Shown: positions 1 to 17,363 of the stretch, one piece after another | How the letters are laid out: every line of letters starts with the position of its first letter | Numbering within the stretch: position 1 is the first letter of the stretch | Virus record (IMG/VR): IMGVR_UViG_3300020214_000126 | Location: 1-23,607 of that record | Origin: a virus | Length of the DNA stretch: 23,607 nucleotides | Direction: 5' to 3' (one strand) | The notes under the pieces: generated by a model | The model's database searches: none | What the model was told of the DNA's origin: nothing | What the model saw: the letters and a program-made list of their open reading frames with translations, nothing else | Translations under genes and position numbers: made by a program

Positions 1-270
1 ATCAAAATCTATCTTACCGTGATCGTCCTCTGGACGCTGTGCCCAGCTCGACGCGAGCCAACCCTCCACGATCTGACGCCAGAGCGTGACGTTCATCTTG
101 ATGTGGAGCTGTGGTCTGGTAGACGCTCCGTCCCTCCAATCGACTGCGGAGGTGTCCAGAGACGCAGCCCAGTCACCGTCATCGAGGCGAAGGTAAACGT
201 TGTCCTGCTCGAAGCATTCCTGGTAGAGGTGAAAATCATCGCTGTATGCGATAGTGCATCGTGTGCTCAT
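1..270 (-). CDS. Hypothetical phage protein, C-terminus cut by window edge
   Basis: The frame is open from an ATG at 270 to the window edge, giving 90 codons without a stop. The N-terminus begins MSTRCTIAYSDDFHLYQECF, followed by an acidic, Trp-containing segment. I do not recognise a family with confidence; small phage proteins opening MSTR are common. No Shine-Dalgarno precedes the ATG. Instead a -10-like box (277-282) lies exactly 6 nt upstream, so the mRNA may be leaderless. The plus-strand ORF over this stretch is a shadow. Confidence 0.7.
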   Translation of the reverse strand, partial: MSTRCTIAYSDDFHLYQECFEQDNVYLRLDDGDWAASLDTSAVDWRDGASTRPQLHIKMNVTLWRQIVEGWLASSWAQRPEDDHGKIDFD

Positions 271-276
271 GATACT

Positions 277-305
277 ATATTACGAGCGTAACCGCGGATT
301 TACAC
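277..305 (-). promoter_or_regulatory. Phage promoter, RTGCAA-N17 class (P1)
   Basis: On the minus strand GTGTAA is followed by a 17-nt spacer and TAATAT. The start ATG (268-270) begins 6 nt after the -10 box, predicting a leaderless transcript. The -35 box touches the perfect inverted repeat at 304-324. It matches the motif seen before seven other genes, with T for C at -35 position 4. Confidence 0.5.
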
Positions 306-324
306 CGTCAATTCTATTGACGGT
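304..324. repeat. Perfect 9-bp inverted repeat, operator candidate
   Basis: ACCGTCAAT, three bases (TCT), then ATTGACGGT form a perfect dyad. Neither side is followed by a T tract, so a rho-independent terminator is unlikely. Its edge overlaps the -35 box of P1, as expected for a repressor or activator site controlling the gene that runs off the left edge. Operator function is inferred from position and symmetry only. Confidence 0.5.
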
Positions 325-336
325 TCAGGATCTGAC

Positions 337-378
337 TCACCGCTGCAACTCTCTTAACGTTGCTGTGATCTCACTCAT
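337..378 (-). CDS. Candidate 13-codon mini-ORF
   Basis: ATG at 378 is preceded by a strong AAGGAGAGAGG ribosome-binding site, and the frame MSEITATLRELQR ends in TGA at 337-339. It lies between the tail-tube-like gene, whose stop is at 414, and promoter P1. The good ribosome site is the main support. It could be a leader peptide, a tiny protein or the remnant of a longer gene; nothing in the product identifies a function. Confidence 0.3.
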   Translation of the reverse strand: MSEITATLRELQR

Positions 379-413
379 TTCCTCTCTCCTTAAACATGCG
401 CTAGAAAGAGAAT

Positions 414-884
414 TCAGCCTCGAAAATTCGCTGGTTTGATCTTGATCGACGTCACCGAGAAAGCAACCTGCGTCACCCAGGGCGTGTCGTCCTGGACATC
501 GAGGTCCGAGAAGCCCATCGCTCCTGGCACCGCCTCCATAGTCCAGGTCTCAATATCATTACCAGCCAGATCAAGGACCCGCAATGTCAGGTTCCTGGGC
601 AGGGGTTTCATCATCCACGACCTGAGGTAGCTGTTGAGAGCAATCTCGGGCACGTTGATCGTCTCGATCGTCATGCTACCCTGGTCGATGACACCCGTCG
701 TGAAGGTTGGTAGCTTGAGCCCGGTGAGCGGAATGTCGAGGTCAAGTCCCGCCACCCGCAGGATCCAGGGCACCCGCTTCACGGTGAAGCCCTCCTCACC
801 CTCCTCCTCAGTCTCGGGCTGCGTTGTGATGACAGCCTCCTCGAGTACCGTCTTCCGACGGCGGCGCTTCTTCTCGTCGCTCAT
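414..884 (-). CDS. Probable tail-tube (T4 gp19-like) or related virion protein
   Basis: 156 aa. Residues 1-35 are a highly charged Lys/Arg then Glu tail. From about residue 38 the protein is beta-rich and follows the pattern of T4 gp19-type tail-tube proteins: a central strand region, a 'lrsWm' helix, then 'tLrvLDlaGNdIetWtmeavP' and a closing 'gfSDLDvqdd..vtqVaFSVtsIKI' strand pair. This is pattern recognition, not a search; another tube- or baseplate-fold protein remains possible. The start at 884 has TGGAGATCGA upstream. The gene follows the 84-aa ORF by 13 nt and is probably co-transcribed from the promoter at 1153-1181. Confidence 0.5.
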   Translation of the reverse strand: MSDEKKRRRRKTVLEEAVITTQPETEEEGEEGFTVKRVPWILRVAGLDLDIPLTGLKLPTFTTGVIDQGSMTIETINVPEIALNSYLRSWMMKPLPRNLTLRVLDLAGNDIETWTMEAVPGAMGFSDLDVQDDTPWVTQVAFSVTSIKIKPANFRG

Positions 885-897
885 TCGATCTCCATCG

Positions 898-1146
898 TCA
901 ACTGTAACAGTGCTGCGGTCGATTTACAGGAACAAGCTCATCAAGCAAGCAGGTCACCGCTCCGTGCTGGGGATGCAGGACATGCACGGTCCTGAGGCCC
1001 GGCACGAGCTCCTGCGTCCGCTCATCGCAGATTATCAGGAGCTCATTCCTGCCCACAGACACCTCCCAGGTCGACTCATCGTGCCGCCTCCAGCAGATTG
1101 TAGTCTCACGAGGTCTCACCAGCTGCCCAATCGTTAGTGTTTCCAT
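898..1146 (-). CDS. Small SH3-like hypothetical protein
   Basis: 82 aa from ATG 1146; a GTG two codons upstream (1152) is also in frame. The N-terminus METLTIGQLVRPRETTICW has the 'xxGQLVRxx' opening also seen in several other small proteins here, suggesting a small beta-barrel (SH3/KOW-like). ATG 1146 is preferred because it lies exactly 6 nt after the TATGAT box of promoter P2; no Shine-Dalgarno is visible, so translation is probably leaderless. It is first in an operon with the tail-tube-like gene. Function unknown. Confidence 0.65.
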   Translation of the reverse strand: METLTIGQLVRPRETTICWRRHDESTWEVSVGRNELLIICDERTQELVPGLRTVHVLHPQHGAVTCLLDELVPVNRPQHCYS

Positions 1147-1152
1147 GCTCAC

Positions 1153-1181
1153 ATCATATTACAATCTGGTTGGTATTGCAT
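1153..1181 (-). promoter_or_regulatory. Phage promoter, RTGCAA-N17 class (P2)
   Basis: Minus-strand ATGCAA, 17-nt spacer, TATGAT, then 6 nt and the ATG at 1146. The -35 box begins at the stop codon of the upstream nucleotidyltransferase gene, so the promoter fills a 34-nt intergenic gap. Confidence 0.6.
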
Positions 1182-1873
1182 CATATCGATAGGTCGCGAT
1201 CGATGATATCGTGGATCTCGTCCCGGGCCTGCTGGAGCTCTCCCGTCCGTCGGAGGACCCGGTAGGCGAGGTTCTCACCCGAGAGTTCACCGCCCAGCTC
1301 GAGTCCAGCCTTCCGCATCTTCGTGATCCTCTTCATGGCGGCCATCAGGGACCCCTCGGAGTGGGTCTCCCGTGCCCTTCTGATCACCTCACGGAAATCC
1401 ATAACCTTCTTCACCACCTTCGACTCATCGAAGGCAGCGCCACCCTCCGTGGGCTCGAGGACCCATTCGTTCCTCGTGATGCTCCATCGACCCGTCACCT
1501 CAGGAGGATCCTCATCGATGTCCTCGACGTAGACCTCAACCGGGATACCCATGATCGTAACGTCGTGCTCCTCCTCCCACTTGAATTTCGCGAGCTTTGT
1601 CGCCCGTTGCAGCGCCTCTGGATCTTTGGAAGCTCCCATGTCGACGATGATATGCAGGTCAAGGTCGCTACCAGGTCCCCAGGTTCGGCCCGCGTAGGAG
1701 CCTGTCAGGATGATGTCCTCAACATCGAGCTCGAGCTCGAGCTCCTTGAGCCAGCGCTGGGCGATCCGACCGAGGGCGTTCGCGATCTCAGGCCGGAGCT
1801 TGCCATCGTCCCAGATCCGTGGGCTGAGTCCGGATTTCGGGCGGACGGAGTCCAGGGCTGTCTGGACGTCCAT
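1181..1873 (-). CDS. Nucleotidyltransferase-fold protein
   Basis: 230 aa. Residues 56-75 carry the pol-beta/MNT-type signature: GS at 58-59 followed by D70-L-D72, with a third acidic residue in VEVYVED near E113. These are the metal-binding residues of the nucleotidyltransferase superfamily, which transfers NMP groups to proteins, small molecules or RNA. The substrate cannot be read from the sequence. The C-terminal half is helical and charged, with no partner domain recognised. The start at 1873 is preceded by GAGGAG and follows the HTH gene by 3 nt. It closes a seven-gene coupled operon. Confidence 0.75.
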   Translation of the reverse strand: MDVQTALDSVRPKSGLSPRIWDDGKLRPEIANALGRIAQRWLKELELELDVEDIILTGSYAGRTWGPGSDLDLHIIVDMGASKDPEALQRATKLAKFKWEEEHDVTIMGIPVEVYVEDIDEDPPEVTGRWSITRNEWVLEPTEGGAAFDESKVVKKVMDFREVIRRARETHSEGSLMAAMKRITKMRKAGLELGGELSGENLAYRVLRRTGELQQARDEIHDIIDRDLSI

Positions 1874-6084: not shown

Positions 6085-6393
6085 TCAGGATCCGTAGAGG
6101 GCAGCGACGGCCCCCGCCGCGAGTGACAGGGCAAGGGAGTTTATGAGCATAATGTAAACTCTCTCCCGGAAGGTCCGGGCATCGAGGAAGATCATCGAGA
6201 TCGAGAAGTTGATGATGGGCAGGAAGAAGCCGATGAGCATCACCGTCGCGAGCATCCTGTGGGCCGTCGCGTAGGCGAACATGCAGCCGAGGACGTTCGT
6301 CAGGAGCCCGAGGAGGAACATCACCTGGAGCCGGAGCCGGAGCTTGTCCTCACCGCGGAGGCGCTCCTGCATCTTCTCGAGGAACTCAATCAC
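6085..6393 (-). CDS. Three-helix membrane protein
   Basis: 102 aa. After a charged N-terminus (MIEFLEKMQERLRGEDK) there are three hydrophobic segments at about residues 21-42, 46-68 and 79-101. The family is not recognised. A holin-like role would fit its size and topology, but it sits in a repair-type operon rather than beside a lysin, so this stays open. The ATG overlaps the UvdE stop by 4 nt. Confidence 0.65.
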   Translation of the reverse strand: MIEFLEKMQERLRGEDKLRLRLQVMFLLGLLTNVLGCMFAYATAHRMLATVMLIGFFLPIINFSISMIFLDARTFRERVYIMLINSLALSLAAGAVAALYGS

Positions 6394-7418
6394 ACGGCCC
6401 TCCGACGGGCGGCCCGCTTCTCGGCTGTCACCGCCGCCTTCTTCTCCTTCTGCTTCCGGGTGACGGCGGCGATCTCCTCATCGGTCGTGCCCCGCCGCTC
6501 GTCGTAGAAGGAGGACTGGTCGACCCCGGTGACGAGCTGGATGACGGCGAGTTCCTTCGCCTTCGCCTCGACGAGGCAGTCGATCTCGAGACCGTGCGGA
6601 TCGACCGGGCCATCGACGAAGTTCGAGTGGGCGGTGGGGCTGACGGTCCGACCCTCACGCTCGCGGGCGGATTCGGAGTAGTGCGTGCAGGGCCGGACCC
6701 CAGCGGGCCAGGTGCTCGCCGCGAGGTGGAGGGCATCACGCTCGCTCAACCCGCCATCACAGAACTTGTGGTGGTGATAGTCGAAGACGACCGGGGTCCC
6801 GGTCCGCTGCCAGACCTTGTGGAGATCGACGACCGAGTAGCACTTCGCCTTGTCATCGTTCTCGACCGTGAGCCGACGTTTGACATTCTCGGGGACCCGC
6901 TCGAAGTTGCGGCACCAGCGATCCATCGACCCCTCCTTCTCACCGAAGGCACCGCCGAGGTGGATGTTGATCTTCGCCTCGGGCGTGTTCGGCAGGCCGA
7001 TGGCGTCCATGATCTCGCCGTGGATCCGGAGGTCGCGGATGCAGTTCTGGACAACATGCTCGCGGGGGGACGTCAGGCAGTTGAACTGGCCCGGATGGAA
7101 GCTGAGACGCTGGCCACCCGCCCGGGCTGTCCGACCGACGAGCTCCAGGCCGGCCCGGATCGCGGGCCAGTCAGGCAGCTGCTCGAACTCGTATTCGGAG
7201 GCCCACGGGGCCAGGTCGGAGGTCATCCGATACACTTGAATCCCATGGGTGTTGTTCCACTCCACAATCCCATGAAGTGTCTCCACATTCTCCAGGGTGA
7301 GGCGGGATGCATGCTGGATACCCTTTTCCTGAAAGGTCCGCTTGATCATCGATCGGAACCCGCCCTTCTTCGAACCAAGGGTCATGTTGAGGCAGGCGTA
7401 ACCGAAGCGGATGGACAT
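6390..7418 (-). CDS. uvsE: UV damage endonuclease (UvdE/UvsE family)
   Basis: 342 aa. A TIM-barrel UV-dimer endonuclease that nicks DNA 5' of photolesions. Visible signatures: RFGYACLN at 4-11, FHPGQFN at 107-113, INIHLGG with H153, TVEND with E186, and VVFDYHHHKFCDGG with D213 and H215-217, matching the metal-binding His/Glu/Asp set. The C-terminus (about 318-342) is a Lys/Arg/Ala-rich tail. The start has GGAGG 6 nt upstream, and promoter P5 lies upstream of that. It leads an operon with a 3-TM protein and three tiny proteins. It probably protects phage DNA from sunlight. Confidence 0.92.
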   Translation of the reverse strand: MSIRFGYACLNMTLGSKKGGFRSMIKRTFQEKGIQHASRLTLENVETLHGIVEWNNTHGIQVYRMTSDLAPWASEYEFEQLPDWPAIRAGLELVGRTARAGGQRLSFHPGQFNCLTSPREHVVQNCIRDLRIHGEIMDAIGLPNTPEAKINIHLGGAFGEKEGSMDRWCRNFERVPENVKRRLTVENDDKAKCYSVVDLHKVWQRTGTPVVFDYHHHKFCDGGLSERDALHLAASTWPAGVRPCTHYSESAREREGRTVSPTAHSNFVDGPVDPHGLEIDCLVEAKAKELAVIQLVTGVDQSSFYDERRGTTDEEIAAVTRKQKEKKAAVTAEKRAARRRAV

Positions 7419-9158: not shown

Positions 9159-9428
9159 TTAATTTTCAATGATTAGCACGCGTAATGTTCCCTGACCGCG
9201 GATTACCCGATGCCAGCTCTCCCTGGGTATCCCGTAGGTGTGACCGGGTAACATCTCGAAGGGTAACCCACTCTCAAGCTGCAGCCTCCAGCCGGCCCCC
9301 TCGAGCACGGTGACCTCCCGGTTCCGTCGATCCATGTGCCACTCTAGCTCCTCGGTTGGCACATCACACGAGAACTCACGCACCATGCTGCTCTCTGAGA
9401 TCATGATCTCTTTGTAGGGTCGACCCAT
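9159..9428 (-). CDS. Small cupin-like protein
   Basis: 89 aa from ATG 9428, which overlaps the upstream stop as TGATG. The pattern 'LEWHMDRRNREVTVLEG' then 'GWRLQLE', 'LPGHTYGIPRESWHRVI' and 'GTLRVLIIE' is that of a single compact cupin barrel. H34 and H77 could be metal ligands. Substrate is unknown. Upstream GTG and TTG codons in frame are less likely starts. Phage cupins occur beside structural genes, as here. Confidence 0.65.
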   Translation of the reverse strand: MGRPYKEIMISESSMVREFSCDVPTEELEWHMDRRNREVTVLEGAGWRLQLESGLPFEMLPGHTYGIPRESWHRVIRGQGTLRVLIIEN

Positions 9429-10636
9429 CACCACCAACCAGGTATATTCCTGCCGAACATCTTCGTGGACCTGCAGGCCCAGTAACCGCCCTTCGTCTTA
9501 TCATTCTTGTCCGCGCAACCGTGACGTTCTCCGAAGCTCTTGCGGCGGGCCTTCGCGGCGGGGCTGCTGCCCATCGCGTCCGGCATGCTCGAACCGAATG
9601 ACACCTTCTTGATGTTTCCGGTCTTTGGGTCACGAACGTAGACGTGAGCACGCCCACCGGACTTGCTTGCCCCTGCGGCGCCGAGCTTCACGGTGCGACC
9701 CTTGTACTTCGCCTCAGGCAGAAAATCATATTCAGTGCCCTCATTCGTCTCATTGAAGTTACCGGTAAACTTTCCCTTATTTCTGGGAACAAACACCTCA
9801 TAGCGATCCTTTGACATTGGAATCATAGCCTCAGGCCTTGTTATACGAAAGCCTAAATTCTTAGATTGCCAATCAAAATCAGTAGGACGCAATCTGCCAA
9901 AAACGTACTTTCGAAGGGAATCAGCGTCAACCAAATACCATCCATTTCCTCTGTCTACCTCAACAGCACCGGGCACATCACCGATTCTTGTGTAGAGAAG
10001 ACCGGTATATCGGGATTTTCTTAGTTTCAGGCTTGGCTCTTTCCCCTTTGCCATTTTCATCGCACGGTACCTGCTGGGAGTTGCATCGATATCCTGACTT
10101 ACAACACCTTGATCATTTGTGGATGCAACAAGAAACGGTTCAAAATAGGGTGCAATAAATGCCCAAACGCCAAAACGTTCTGGTGCCGAATCATTAGTTT
10201 GTTTTACAGCTGAAAATCCTCCAAGCCTTGAAAGAATAATGCCCGGGCCGTTAGTGTAGGGCCTCTTGTCTGCACCTTCATTCATCTCATTGTCATCCCA
10301 CATCGGAAAATCAAGGGGCACCCTCCGACCCTCGAACATCGCCCACTCGCCGATGTCACTCTGGAACATCTCATACTCGGCCGCGGTAGCCTCATAGAGT
10401 CCCCGATTCCAGAGCTCACGAGCCTCGTTGAAGAGATCGAAGAACTCGCGGGTGCCAGGGCGATAGACGTTGTCGTCGAATGTCACGCCGTTCCTGAGGT
10501 GATAGCGCATTCCCTCTGACAAGCTTGCACCGATTCCTGTCCTCTGCGCCGTCGCCGTCTCATCCTTGCGAGCATCCCGGTACACGTCGAATTCTCCGAG
10601 ATTTTTTGGACTCTTCAGGTTGCCGTCAGCGTCCAT
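9428..10636 (-). CDS. Large hypothetical, probable virion protein; -1 frame partner of the upstream gene
   Basis: 402 aa from the first ATG, but the frame is open a further 44 codons back to the A-rich site at 10769-10777, and no good ribosome site precedes ATG 10636. It is therefore probably made as the C-terminal part of a 618-aa frameshift product. Features: 'FRPG'-like segment NVYRPGTREFFDLFNEAREL, 'DFPMWDDNEMNE', a middle strand-rich region, and a C-terminal basic module 'KARRKSFGERHGC' ... 'DKTKGGYWACR' that I have seen at the ends of phage structural proteins (from memory). Exact function unknown. Confidence 0.6.
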   Translation of the reverse strand: MDADGNLKSPKNLGEFDVYRDARKDETATAQRTGIGASLSEGMRYHLRNGVTFDDNVYRPGTREFFDLFNEARELWNRGLYEATAAEYEMFQSDIGEWAMFEGRRVPLDFPMWDDNEMNEGADKRPYTNGPGIILSRLGGFSAVKQTNDSAPERFGVWAFIAPYFEPFLVASTNDQGVVSQDIDATPSRYRAMKMAKGKEPSLKLRKSRYTGLLYTRIGDVPGAVEVDRGNGWYLVDADSLRKYVFGRLRPTDFDWQSKNLGFRITRPEAMIPMSKDRYEVFVPRNKGKFTGNFNETNEGTEYDFLPEAKYKGRTVKLGAAGASKSGGRAHVYVRDPKTGNIKKVSFGSSMPDAMGSSPAAKARRKSFGERHGCADKNDKTKGGYWACRSTKMFGRNIPGWW

Positions 10637-10721
10637 ATCTTCTGCGGTTGACTGCGCGCCGAAGGATTTACCCTTGTCCTCCGGATGGGCCAGCAGGGTC
10701 TCACTCCTGGTGGCCTGCGGA

Positions 10722-10777
10722 GGATGGACCTTGTCTACAGGTCCACCCTTTCTGCTGTCCTCACTTACTTTTTTTTT
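10722..10777 (-). promoter_or_regulatory. Candidate programmed -1 frameshift site with 3' hairpin
   Basis: Minus strand carries A9 then G, containing the heptamer A AAA AAG (10774-10768) in the correct frame, immediately followed by the TAA stop. Purine-rich GGGAAAGGG sits just upstream and could act as an internal Shine-Dalgarno stimulator. A 9-bp stem (GGTGGACCT with AGGTCCATC(C), one G-U pair) with a 7-nt loop lies 20 nt downstream, farther than usual. The -1 frame is open for 446 codons. Confidence 0.55.
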
Positions 10778-11283
10778 GATCCCTTTCCCTTCTTCGACCT
10801 GGGAATGTCATACCACTGGTTCTCGAGGGTCTTCTTCATGTTGCGACGCTTCTTCATGTACCAGGCCTTGCGGGCCTCGTTCATATGAGCGCTCTCAGCG
10901 TTGAGGTAATCGTAGATGACGTCCATCATCTCGGCTGCAACAGCGATCTTCTCCTGGACCCACTCGGGCAGGTCATCGCCATCCTCGATCGCATCGTGGA
11001 GATCCTGTGCCTGGTTCGCCATCGTGTAGAGATTGTTCTTGATCATCGAGGATTCCTCGTGGTCATCAGAATCCTCATACTCGATGCCATCATCCTCATC
11101 GAAATCACGATCGGGAGCCCCCGGACTGGGTGATCTCATCCTCGCGATCGGTTCCTCACCGCCGTAACCGAGGATATCGAGCATCGGCATCGCTGCAGCC
11201 ATCACGTTGGGAAGCTCACCCTCGCGGGCCATGCAAGCGCACTCGGCGATGATCATCCTACGAAGTTCGTTCCTATCCATCAT
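10765..11283 (-). CDS. Hypothetical virion-type protein with frameshift-prone end
   Basis: 172 aa. The N-terminus MMDRNELRRMIIAECACMAR resembles the short 'LTxxxLRxII' leader found on several proteins here. An acidic Asp/Glu segment follows (about 60-78). Then comes the helical module 'MIKNNLYTMANQAQDLHDAI' and 'DLPEWVQEKIAVAAEMMD', which I recall as recurring in phage structural proteins. The C-terminus is Lys-rich and encoded by nine A residues. The ATG overlaps the preceding stop (ATGA) behind GGGGAAGAG. The stop is probably bypassed at some rate by -1 frameshifting. Confidence 0.65.
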   Translation of the reverse strand: MMDRNELRRMIIAECACMAREGELPNVMAAAMPMLDILGYGGEEPIARMRSPSPGAPDRDFDEDDGIEYEDSDDHEESSMIKNNLYTMANQAQDLHDAIEDGDDLPEWVQEKIAVAAEMMDVIYDYLNAESAHMNEARKAWYMKKRRNMKKTLENQWYDIPRSKKGKGSKKK

Positions 11284-12467: not shown

Positions 12468-12827
12468 CTATCTCCTTTTGTTTTTACGAGGTCCATTGGG
12501 GGCCGCCTCGTGAATTAATACTAGCTTAAGTTCGCAGGTTTTGCAGATTAATTCGAACTTTTTTTTGTCGGTCACCAGCTCGAGCTTTCTGGATCGTGAA
12601 AGCGCCTTCACGGTCCGCTCGGTTCTCAGGGCACATGAGAGGCAGCAGGCTGGGTGACTGACCAGAAGACGAACAGGCCGTCGGGAGCGTGTGTATTTTG
12701 CCCCTCGACGGCCTGAATTGTGTTCGTTGATCCTTCGCTCAACGTCTGTCGTGATACCGCAGTAGAGCGTACCATCGGCGCACTCGACCAGGTAGATGTG
12801 GTAGAGTCTACTCGTCAATGTACTCAA
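12468..12827 (-). CDS. GIY-YIG endonuclease-like protein
   Basis: 119 aa. The GIY-YIG core is clear: YHIYLVECADGTLYCGITTD at 9-28, with YCG replacing YIG, then the catalytic-Arg helix 'DVERRINEHN' and 'AKYTRSRRPVRLL', with a Glu in RTERTVKAL. It resembles the short single-domain UPF0213/YhbQ-type group. A Cys-containing tail 'FELICKTCELKL' follows, perhaps with other Cys residues binding zinc. The only suitable starts are TTG codons at 12827 or 12818; the gene overlaps the GapR-like gene by 20 nt and is probably coupled. It could be a homing or repair nuclease. Confidence 0.75.
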   Translation of the reverse strand: MSTLTSRLYHIYLVECADGTLYCGITTDVERRINEHNSGRRGAKYTRSRRPVRLLVSHPACCLSCALRTERTVKALSRSRKLELVTDKKKFELICKTCELKLVLIHEAAPNGPRKNKRR

Positions 12828-13724: not shown

Positions 13725-13957
13725 TCTTCAATTGTCCTCATTTCTCTGCGAATGTTTTGGTCGAGGACCATAAAAATGAGCCTCGCACCCTCATCCGTGG
13801 TGCGACCACGGAGATGCTTAGCAAGCTCTCTTTCGATCGATCCCTTGTCGCTGAGCTTGCATCCATTGAGAAAATTAGCAGCCCGCTCGTAGAGCGATTG
13901 CAGCTGCTCCTCATCCCAATCGTGAATTTCAAGTAACCTGGTCTCCAGATCTATCAT
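13721..13957 (-). CDS. 78-aa helical hypothetical protein
   Basis: 78 aa, almost entirely helical (MIDLETRLLEIHDWDEEQLQ, 'RAANFLNGCKLSDKGSIERE', 'IRREMRTIEE'). No recognised family. ATGA overlaps join it to both the sigma 4.2-like gene upstream and the 102-aa gene downstream, making it part of the sigma operon. A role as a sigma accessory or anti-sigma protein is conceivable but rests only on position. Confidence 0.6.
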   Translation of the reverse strand: MIDLETRLLEIHDWDEEQLQSLYERAANFLNGCKLSDKGSIERELAKHLRGRTTDEGARLIFMVLDQNIRREMRTIEE

Positions 13958-14253
13958 GCTGCCTCAGTGTAAATATCCCCCAACATCGAAGCCATCGATT
14001 CCTGAAAGCGTGGATCAAGGGAAACACGTTTTGACTCTGCGTCAAGCAGCTCGGGAGAGATGCCCTGAAGGATGCAGAGCTCACGCGCGATCTTCTCGAG
14101 GGCTCGCAGGACGAGATTTCGAGCAGTCGAGATCGAGATCTCATCACCGTCAGCGGCCATTCGCTCCGCAATCGCACGATACTCCAGGCCGCCGAAATCC
14201 GAGCTCACGGTGGCGTAACCGTTCTTAAATTTTGAACCGTTGGGCATGCTCAT
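13954..14253 (-). CDS. Separate sigma-region-4.2-like helix-turn-helix protein
   Basis: 99 aa. Residues 22-58 (GLEYRAIAERMAADGDEISI then STARNLVLRALEKIAREL) align by eye with sigma-70 region 4.2, where 'LEEIGxxfgVTRERIRQIE' leads to 'AKALRKLR'. The family's Arg-rich recognition helix is changed to STARNLVLR, implying altered -35 contact. The C-terminal 40 residues are unassigned. Its ATG overlaps the stop of the sigma gene (TGATG) with AGGAG inside that gene's end. It may complete a two-polypeptide sigma factor, or it may be an independent HTH regulator. Confidence 0.55.
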   Translation of the reverse strand: MSMPNGSKFKNGYATVSSDFGGLEYRAIAERMAADGDEISISTARNLVLRALEKIARELCILQGISPELLDAESKRVSLDPRFQESMASMLGDIYTEAA

Positions 14254-15035
14254 CAGGACTCCTGGGCGGCATCAAGGGCCGCGAGTTCGGACTTGGTGAT
14301 TGGAAAGTTGACATGATCGGTGGGACTCTCGACGAGAGCGAAGCGAAGACGAAGGATCTTCTCCTCGCGTGCCGTAAGCTTCTTCAGACCGCGACGGATC
14401 GCTAGCGCGATCTTATCGCGGTCGATGCTCTCATCGATCTCATCGGCCCCGGCTCCCGGGATCAGATCTCCCAGTCTCGGTGCGTCGGGATCATCTCCCA
14501 GCGCGCCGGGCGCGTCGAGGCTCAGGGTATACTTGGAAGTCTGCAGCAGGACATCGAGAGAGCTGATCCCGACGCCCAGGATATCAGCAAGCTCCTCGAC
14601 GGAGGGTTGAACCCCAAACTCACGCTGGTATTCCTCTGCCGCCCGGCGGGCGCGCCACACAAGGTTATTCGCCCCCGCCGGAAGACGGATGGAAGAGGAC
14701 TGGAGCGTGATATGCCGCATGACCGACTGACGGATCCACCAGGTCGCGTAGGTCGAGAACTTGAAGCCACGCCGCCAGTCGAAACGATCCACCGCCTTCA
14801 TGAGACCAAGGGTGCTCTCCTGGATCAGATCCTCGAAATCGCAGCCACGATTCTGATACTTCTTCGCGATCGAGACCGCGAGTCGAATATTCGACTGTAC
14901 CATCCTGTTTCGCGCTGCGGACCGAACCTTCTCGTCCTTGCTCTCCATCTGCTGGGCGAGATTTACCTCACCCTCACGAGTGAGGAGAGCGTGACGACCC
15001 ACCTCCTTGAAGAATGTCTGCATCATGTCAGGCAT
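14253..15035 (-). CDS. Sigma-70-family factor ending after region 4.1
   Basis: 260 aa. Region 1.2: DMMQTFFKEVGRHALLTREG (3-22). Region 2: RNRMVQSNIRLAVSIAKKYQ, 'GCDFEDLIQESTLGLMKAVD', 'FKFSTYATWWIRQSVMRHI' and SIRLPAG (42-121), which provides core binding, melting and -10 recognition. Region 3: EEYQREFGVQPSVEELADIL. Region 4.1: LKKLTAREEKILRLRFAL (217-234). After that the usual region 4.2 HTH is missing; the chain ends 26 residues later (ELAALDAAQES). The next gene supplies a 4.2-like HTH. It probably redirects host RNA polymerase to phage promoters. AAAGGAG precedes the ATG. Confidence 0.85.
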   Translation of the reverse strand: MPDMMQTFFKEVGRHALLTREGEVNLAQQMESKDEKVRSAARNRMVQSNIRLAVSIAKKYQNRGCDFEDLIQESTLGLMKAVDRFDWRRGFKFSTYATWWIRQSVMRHITLQSSSIRLPAGANNLVWRARRAAEEYQREFGVQPSVEELADILGVGISSLDVLLQTSKYTLSLDAPGALGDDPDAPRLGDLIPGAGADEIDESIDRDKIALAIRRGLKKLTAREEKILRLRFALVESPTDHVNFPITKSELAALDAAQES

Positions 15036-15770: not shown

Positions 15771-17363
15771 TTACGCAGGAGCGTCATCGACGATAGTGCA
15801 GCCCACGGAGAGTAACATACTTGCGGCGGAATGCGCATTTTCCAGCGCCGATCGAACGACCTTCAGGGGATCGACGATGCCTGCCTCAATCGTGTCCACG
15901 TAGCGTTCGGTCGCAGCATCGTAGCCTGTGCTATCACGTAGACGTTCGACCTTCGAGAGGATAAGCTCGGGATTGCGACCTGCGTTTGAGACGATCTGCC
16001 GGAGCGGTGAGCAGCAGGCCTGCAAGATCACCTCGGTGCCCTGCTTGAACGAATCGCTCCGGTTTCTCAGGGCACGACGACGGACGCGAGCTGAGGCTCG
16101 CACAAGCGCGGTACCGCCACCCGGAAGAATACCCTCTTCCACCGCCGCCTTCGTTGCGTGGAGGGCATCATCGACACGATCGCGCCGCTCCTTCAGCTCA
16201 GGCTCTGTTGCTCCACCGACACGCAGGATAGCCACACCGCCCGCGAGGCGGGCCAAGCGCCGGCGGAGCGCATCATGCTCGTGGGTATCGAGACCTGGAT
16301 CCTCGATCTGTGACCTGATCTCAGCAGCTCGGGCGGTGATATCCTCCTTCCTACCAGCAGCATCGATGAGAACGCTGCGATGACGACCCACGATGGCACG
16401 CTTGCAGCGTCCCAGCTCCTGGAGGTTCACCCTCGCGAGGTCCGACTCACCGATCACAACCCGTGTTCCGAGGAGGATGGCAAGATCCTGCAGGGCATGG
16501 AGACGATTCTCACCAAATTCCGGACCCTTGATCGCGCTCACCTGCAGGATACCCTTCGTCCTGTTGACCACGAGACCCTGCATCGCCTCGCCCTCAATAT
16601 CATCAGCGACGATCAGGATGGGTTTCTGCGCCGCGTGTATCTTCTCAAGAAGCGGCATGAGTTCCTTCAGCGTCGTGATCCGGCTGTTGGTGAGCAGGAC
16701 GTAGGGTGACTCGAGGGATGAGACCATCTTCTCGCTGTCCGTCACGAAGTAGGGCGAGAGGTAACCACGATCGAGCTCGGCTCCCTCAACGACATGGAGG
16801 CTTGTGCTGAACCCCTTCGCCTCCTCGACCGTGATCGTTCCATCACGACCGACAGCACGCATTGCCTGGGCCAGAAGTTCACCGATCTCCCGCTCGCCGT
16901 TCGCCGAGATCGTGCCAACCTGGACGACCTCCTCATCAGATGAGACGGGCTTCGCCATCGCGCGGAGCTCCTCGATCACCGAGGCAACCGCCCACGACAT
17001 GCCGGCCCGAACCTCTGGGCTGCTGTGATCGCCCGAGAGGACACGAAGTCCACCGTTGAAGATAGCGTGCGTGAGGACTGTCGCGGTGGTGGTTCCATCA
17101 CCTGCAGCATCGCAGGTGCGGTTCGCAGCTTCCTTGACGATCTGCGCCCCGAGGTTCATGTTACGATCCCTGAAATCGATAGCCCGGGCAACGCTTACCC
17201 CGTCCTTCGTGACGATGGGAGGCGCTCCCGGTACCTCGATTATCACGTTCTGACCTGAGGGACCCATCGTGACCCTAACTGCTTGAGCGAGCGAATCGAC
17301 ACCCTTACGTAAGCTCTCGCGTGCCTCATCATCGAAGATGAGAGCCTTGAAACCCTCGGTCAT
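15771..17363 (-). CDS. groEL: GroEL-type chaperonin (Hsp60)
   Basis: 530 aa, close to the usual 540-548. Equatorial ATP-site motifs: DGTTTAT at 89-95, PGGGTAL at 414-420, and RVDDALHAT at 396-404, which includes the catalytic Asp. Apical substrate/co-chaperonin surface: RGYLSPYF at 199-206. It should form a folding ring for phage or host proteins. The Gly-Gly-Met tail typical of bacterial GroEL is absent; it ends 'VGCTIVDDAPA'. It follows the 70-aa gene by 4 nt, where groES would normally be. Some jumbo phages carry GroEL, but this one looks unusually bacterial-like by eye. Confidence 0.95.
   Translation of the reverse strand: MTEGFKALIFDDEARESLRKGVDSLAQAVRVTMGPSGQNVIIEVPGAPPIVTKDGVSVARAIDFRDRNMNLGAQIVKEAANRTCDAAGDGTTTATVLTHAIFNGGLRVLSGDHSSPEVRAGMSWAVASVIEELRAMAKPVSSDEEVVQVGTISANGEREIGELLAQAMRAVGRDGTITVEEAKGFSTSLHVVEGAELDRGYLSPYFVTDSEKMVSSLESPYVLLTNSRITTLKELMPLLEKIHAAQKPILIVADDIEGEAMQGLVVNRTKGILQVSAIKGPEFGENRLHALQDLAILLGTRVVIGESDLARVNLQELGRCKRAIVGRHRSVLIDAAGRKEDITARAAEIRSQIEDPGLDTHEHDALRRRLARLAGGVAILRVGGATEPELKERRDRVDDALHATKAAVEEGILPGGGTALVRASARVRRRALRNRSDSFKQGTEVILQACCSPLRQIVSNAGRNPELILSKVERLRDSTGYDAATERYVDTIEAGIVDPLKVVRSALENAHSAASMLLSVGCTIVDDAPA

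Follow-up and report, generated by a model that had tools for sequence, protein, structure and literature searches.

A conserved nine-adenine run ending a likely internal head protein gene of uncultured T4-like phages, a candidate site of RNA polymerase slippage

We investigated the 3′ end of a 172-codon gene, here called gene A, in the window, i.e. the whole 23,607-nucleotide stretch of viral DNA that was analysed. The earlier note had reported that this gene ends in the heptamer A AAA AAG directly before TAA, and the coordinates were confirmed on the minus strand, where all genes of the locus lie. A change of frame at this point is found conserved in every relative and, judged from the aligned sequences, is very probably real and programmed. 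The programmed -1 frameshift of the earlier note therefore stands as a frame change; its textbook ribosomal mechanism fits less well, the whole run of nine A (A9) being conserved rather than only the heptamer, and slippage of RNA polymerase on A9 is in our judgement the likelier main cause. The features of the locus are as follows.

10765..11283, minus strand: gene A, 0-frame product and short form, 172 codons, 172 aa
10769..10777, minus strand: A9 slip run, the sole A9 of the record, followed by G at 10768
10768..10774, minus strand: heptamer A_AAA_AAG, inside the A9 run
10765..10767, minus strand: 0-frame stop TAA, directly 3′ of the slip site
10761..10763, minus strand: TGA closing the +1 frame
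10580..10768, minus strand: segment B, conserved -1-frame extension of about 63-64 codons, VSEDSRKGGPVDKVHPPQATRSETLLAHPEDKGKSF...LGEFDVYRDA (alignment A2; pN/pS)
9428..10579, minus strand: segment C, downstream gene, here fused in frame to B

On the minus strand of the window, the end of gene A reads TCA AAA AAA AAG TAA. Behind a TGA at 10810..10808, the -1 frame runs without interruption from 10807 to a stop at 9430..9428 and holds 446 codons past the slip, which with the 172 of gene A gives the 618-aa product that the earlier note had deduced. In the codon use of the window, lysine is written AAA in 25 of 201 cases (AAG 88%) and the third position is A in 9.5%; arithmetic from these figures gives a probability of about 0.001 for x-K-K-K to be encoded as NNA AAA AAA AAG. 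Considering this value, and that all relatives kept the run, the A9 site is more than chance.

The relatives came from an IMG/VR protein search with gene A, which returned five contigs (L002 to L006) with 66-68% identity of the best segment, 70-73% identical in alignment A1, and from a search with the -1 extension, which added a sixth homolog, L024. A DNA pattern taken from another part of gene A, with the slip site unused, retrieved exactly these six contigs. All are from uncultured T4-like phages; these six were the related contigs in the collection searched, and none was from a cultured phage. L003 and L004, from two assemblies, are identical over the locus, so that six distinct sequences were compared, the window included. 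Among 61 screened contigs matching TGGTAYGAY...A9G, only the known relatives shared gene A, and the genome collection scans gave no prophage copies. In isolate phages, gene A found only a partial match, a 51-aa stretch in Synechococcus phages S-WAM2 and S-H9-1, and segment B was not found.

All seven records, i.e. six distinct sequences, present A9G at the same place, in the contexts tcA9GTAA (window), gtA9GTAA (L002), ttA9GTAA (L006), tcA9GTAG (L005), gtA9GAGATAG (L003) and gtA9GTAG (L024). With both strands considered, A9 occurs exactly once in each of the six relatives' records (142.9 kb for L002, then 53.6, 65.6, 16.1, 19.0 and 73.4 kb), as it does in the window. The slippery site is thus conserved beyond what the protein requires. 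Its first two lysine codons are always AAA, despite the preference of the window for AAG. The 5′-most A of the run is the wobble base of TCA, GTA, TTA, TCA, GTA and GTA, encoding Ser, Val or Leu: the residue varies and the A is kept. Outside the slip site, the 34 columns of gene A with at least three residues include one with an invariant third base and none with an invariant A, an argument based on six related sequences. Stops in the 0 and +1 frames lie within four codons of the slip in 6/6 sequences; the TGA closing the +1 frame is also a consequence of NNT GAG/GAA codons that are kept there.

The constancy of the run bears on two explanations that do without slippage in expression. The true run could have ten A, a sequencing or assembly error having hidden one plain 618-aa ORF; the earlier note had named relatives with ten A as a refutation of the frameshift, and none was found. 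Homopolymers are generally error-prone, but A9 is present in all seven records, two of them identical from separate assemblies, and the 0-frame ends differ (TAA, TAG, AGA TAG), so that a single copied error does not account for the sites. We consider an error of this kind exceedingly improbable. Replication slippage could also make the site phase-variable, the long form being produced by A10 phages in the population, as A-runs are slippery for DNA polymerase too (a general point, PMC3711429). This seems very improbable, since neither A8 nor A10 is a consensus among the seven records, and the extension is under purifying selection in six sequences while every consensus is A9.

That selection was measured on segment B, which is alignable in all six sequences, with the motif GPxxxxPPQATKSxTxLPHPEDKGKSF...FDIYRD and 46-58% identity of four others to L002 (alignment A2). 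In the -1 register pN/pS is 0.47 on average and lies between 0.31 and 0.59 in each of the 15 pairs, compared to means of 1.33 and 1.13 for the other two registers, with every value at least 0.88. The -1 extension is under purifying selection. The alignment with related phages that the earlier note had asked for thus showed both the A9G, kept in every distinct sequence, and the extension, kept as protein. A glutamate is also kept soon after the slip (VSE/D, VSE/G, VGE/G, IGE/A, VDE/E; window 10760..10768, minus strand), and might be a second prohead-protease site freeing B-C from A.

The possibility of a start codon within the -1 frame concerns the following feature.

10634..10636, minus strand: ATG of the mechanically called 402-aa ORF, inside segment B, with no ribosome-binding site

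This ATG is the first ATG, GTG or TTG of the -1 frame in the window, and no Shine-Dalgarno sequence precedes it (CAGTCAACCGCAGAAGATATG), in agreement with the earlier note, which had seen no good ribosome site for this ORF. In L024 the 64-codon extension contains no ATG, GTG or TTG at all and is therefore reachable only by frameshifting; elsewhere the first such codon falls between codon 20 and codon 44, at a place that is not conserved. A start inside the -1 frame consequently cannot explain segment B. Translation of B-C from its own start, at ATG 10636 or by reinitiation, with the run incidental, would draw on the ATG that opens the mechanical ORF and on the own ATG of gene C in L003, L005 and L024. 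Against this, besides the missing Shine-Dalgarno sequence and the L024 extension, most of B precedes ATG 10636 and is conserved at the protein level, which makes this explanation highly unlikely. A conserved independent start, which the earlier note had named as a refutation, was found in none of the extensions; gene C has its own ATG in three lineages.

The 402-aa ORF consists of C and the tail of B. In L003, L005 and L024 the -1 frame ends after 63-64 codons, and gene C is separate and opens with an N-terminus such as MNSRALKILVREEISRLIE; in the window, L002 and L006, B continues straight into C, which there has no such N-terminus, and in the window the fusion yields the 618-aa product. The extension into the 402-aa ORF described in the earlier note holds for the conserved B of about 64 aa, while the ORF is mostly the separate gene C, fused in the window and two lineages. 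B resembles the N-terminal part of C (GPGSVRPPQVTDKILPGHD... in L003; match E 0.003), and the B-C join is located in a KxLxxxDVYxD stretch common to both, which suggests that the join arose by recombination between B and C. For the direction of the fusion, the six-taxon tree is weak (supports 44-91). The C domain gave only partial matches in isolate phages (Flavobacterium immuto, Melnitz, HTVC008M and others). The window's C also carries an insert.

9720..10290, minus strand: low-GC insert in C, in frame, 44% GC vs 57% for the window; absent from L002, L005 and L006

In L003 a different-looking insert is found at the same place in C, just before EAKYKGRTVKLG.

Two machines could slip at this site, and both predict an identical 618-aa sequence, with the junction ...GSKKKVSED. 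Under RNA polymerase slippage, most transcripts would carry nine A and give the 172-aa protein; in some, the polymerase would add one A, and plain translation of these A10 transcripts would enter the -1 frame and append segment B, or B and C (618 aa in total) in the phage of the window. Transcripts shifted the other way would stop within a few codons at the TGA, and a closed +1 frame is as expected if the +1 products of slippage must be curtailed. The site has the homopolymer expected of transcriptional slippage, an A/T tract of about nine or more with selection acting on the run as a whole. Bacterial RNA polymerase slips efficiently on A9 runs, Thermus dnaX being an example (PMC5009743), and slippage on the A11 of Citrobacter tssM reaches about 20-25% (PMC4256274). 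The phage of the window encodes a sigma-70 and is thus probably transcribed by a bacterial multisubunit polymerase.

Classical -1 ribosomal frameshifting at A_AAA_AAG would instead use two elements of the window as stimulators.

10781..10789, minus strand: tract GGGAAAGGG, proposed internal Shine-Dalgarno stimulator, not conserved
10724..10746, minus strand: hairpin with an 8-bp core, about 21 nt 3′ of the heptamer, strong in the window, not conserved

The X_XXY_YYZ heptamer that a ribosomal -1 signal requires is present in frame. It is a perfect heptamer of the dnaX/IS type, at the gene end in 6/6 sequences, with an invariant G, as ribosomal slippage favours. The purine tract is present at 10789..10781, as the earlier note had indicated, but it is not conserved, and an SD-like element from the validated list (PMC4066793) occurs only in L006, 1/6 sequences. 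The hairpin of the earlier note is likewise real in the window and not conserved: over the 50 nt past the site, z is -3.3 in the window and -3.2 in L024, -1.5 in L002, and above 0 in L006 (+0.4), L003 (+0.7) and L005 (+1.4). With these three values, and only 3 pairs in the consensus fold downstream of the site, a conserved downstream RNA structure was rejected, and across the six sequences neither such a structure nor a conserved SD-like element was found. An Rfam search of 10400-11100 gave no match. The spacing of the window hairpin also exceeds the 5-8 nt usual for ribosomal -1 stimulators, and the best heptamers of this type without a stimulator reach about 0.3% in E. coli (PMC4066793). The A kept before three lysine codons, through amino-acid changes, is left unexplained by the ribosome. 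Finally, the AAG preference hints at a second tRNA-Lys in the host, which by the argument of PMC5009743 would weaken slippage on AAG; no tRNA genes were found in the window or in the relatives' loci examined. Ribosomal frameshifting as the main cause is possible and, on these points, the less likely of the two. Polymerase slippage better fits the full A9 that is kept, down to a wobble A in a codon whose residue varies, together with the stops in both other frames.

The site resembles known cases of both kinds. It is like the A9 of Thermus dnaX, the A-runs of Shigella spa13 and mxiE and the A11 of Citrobacter tssM in having about nine or more A near a stop (PMC5009743, PMC4256274), stops in the other frames, and a short and a long product, with no conserved RNA structure or SD needed; unlike these bacterial genes, it is part of a T4-like phage, probably of a head gene, and its slippage is predicted from the sequence. 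With E. coli dnaX and the -1 ribosomal frameshifting of the IS3 family it shares the identical heptamer A_AAA_AAG, but it presents neither a conserved SD nor a downstream structure at the usual distance, and keeps A9, not A6G. The tail assembly chaperones gpG/gpGT of lambda and other phages also receive a C-terminal part by frameshift; in contrast, gene A sits among sigma, GroEL and repair genes. No similarity of gene A to such chaperones was detected in Pfam, PHROGs or NCBIfam. Its neighbours include no recognisable tail genes, though most have no assigned function. According to Vladimirov 2022 (as cited in PMC10885494), T4-like phages produce their chaperones with no frameshift.

The neighbourhood contains several recognisable genes. 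A full-length GroEL lies at 15771..17363 (minus strand; NCBIfam E 5e-189), a UvdE/UvsE UV-damage endonuclease at 6390..7418 (minus strand; E 2e-64) and a GIY-YIG nuclease ORF at 12468..12827 (minus strand; Pfam E 5e-13), with relatives in L002 and L024. The sigma-70 is split (window 13954..15035, minus strand): one ORF encodes regions 1.2, 2 and 3 and the beginning of region 4, and what remains of region 4 is apparently encoded by a second ORF that begins at the stop of the first (Pfam, with a weak match for region 4). All five sequences examined (window, L002 at 26..1263, L003, L005 and L006) show the break; L003 and L006 have both ORFs in the same frame, with a single stop between them.

The earlier note had also called the product a virion protein, which is plausible for a different reason, namely the start of gene A.

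11242..11283, minus strand: capsid-targeting-like N-terminus of gene A, MMDRNELRRMIIAE/C

Related N-termini (LRRIIxEE and similar) open about 10 otherwise different proteins of the 142.9-kb L002 record. Over 140 kb of mechanically called ORFs, the motif occurs in 9/129 N-termini vs 3/1211 interior windows; the pattern was devised after seeing examples, so that this significance is overstated and the contrast is suggestive only. Two motif genes lie just before a gp21-type prohead protease in L002, within 1.5 kb of it (PF03420, E 1.5e-27), and gp23 is present in the same record. In T4, core genes are located beside the prohead protease gene. A capsid-targeting sequence is common to the T4 internal proteins, and the protease cleaves it off behind a glutamate (PMC3012670, PMC5694885). 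Taken together, the common N-termini, the protease neighbours and the T4 targeting sequence indicate that gene A likely encodes a capsid-targeted internal head protein; where it is separate, C also looks like an internal head protein. Profile searches of A and B-C against Pfam, NCBIfam and PDB gave nothing significant, and in PHROGs the only matches were weak, to families whose function is not known.

The arrangement is like that of T4 IPI-IPIII and Alt, where a short N-terminal motif ending in E stands on otherwise unrelated proteins (PMC5694885), and, as in T4, a gp21-type protease is encoded in the same genome (L002) as the motif-bearing proteins. Unlike that of the T4 internal proteins, the processing is here a prediction: the gp21-type protease would cut the capsid-targeting peptide of A, and the long form would carry B-C into the head. 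In the fused lineages, C would need the N-terminus of A to reach the head. We tentatively propose that this may be a phage head gene with two forms set by polymerase slippage on A9, the slip site acting as a socket for a fused neighbour whose product would ride into the capsid on A's targeting peptide.

In tailed phages, recoding has been described mainly for tail chaperones and for a small number of capsid genes, and the ribosome is usually taken to be its cause. In the literature searched, no frameshifted T4 internal protein was found, and no phage head gene with two forms made by polymerase slippage. The kind of site is known; as far as searched, this gene is new, and so are the phage group and the probable slippage of polymerase in the head gene of a phage. 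The conserved A9, unique in each genome and located in what is probably an inner-head gene, suggests that polymerase slippage serves to set a protein ratio in some phages and that the long form, with its 64-aa or 446-aa extension, escapes annotation pipelines. At one and the same site, some lineages append a 64-aa tail and others a whole second gene, which offers a natural comparison of stages.
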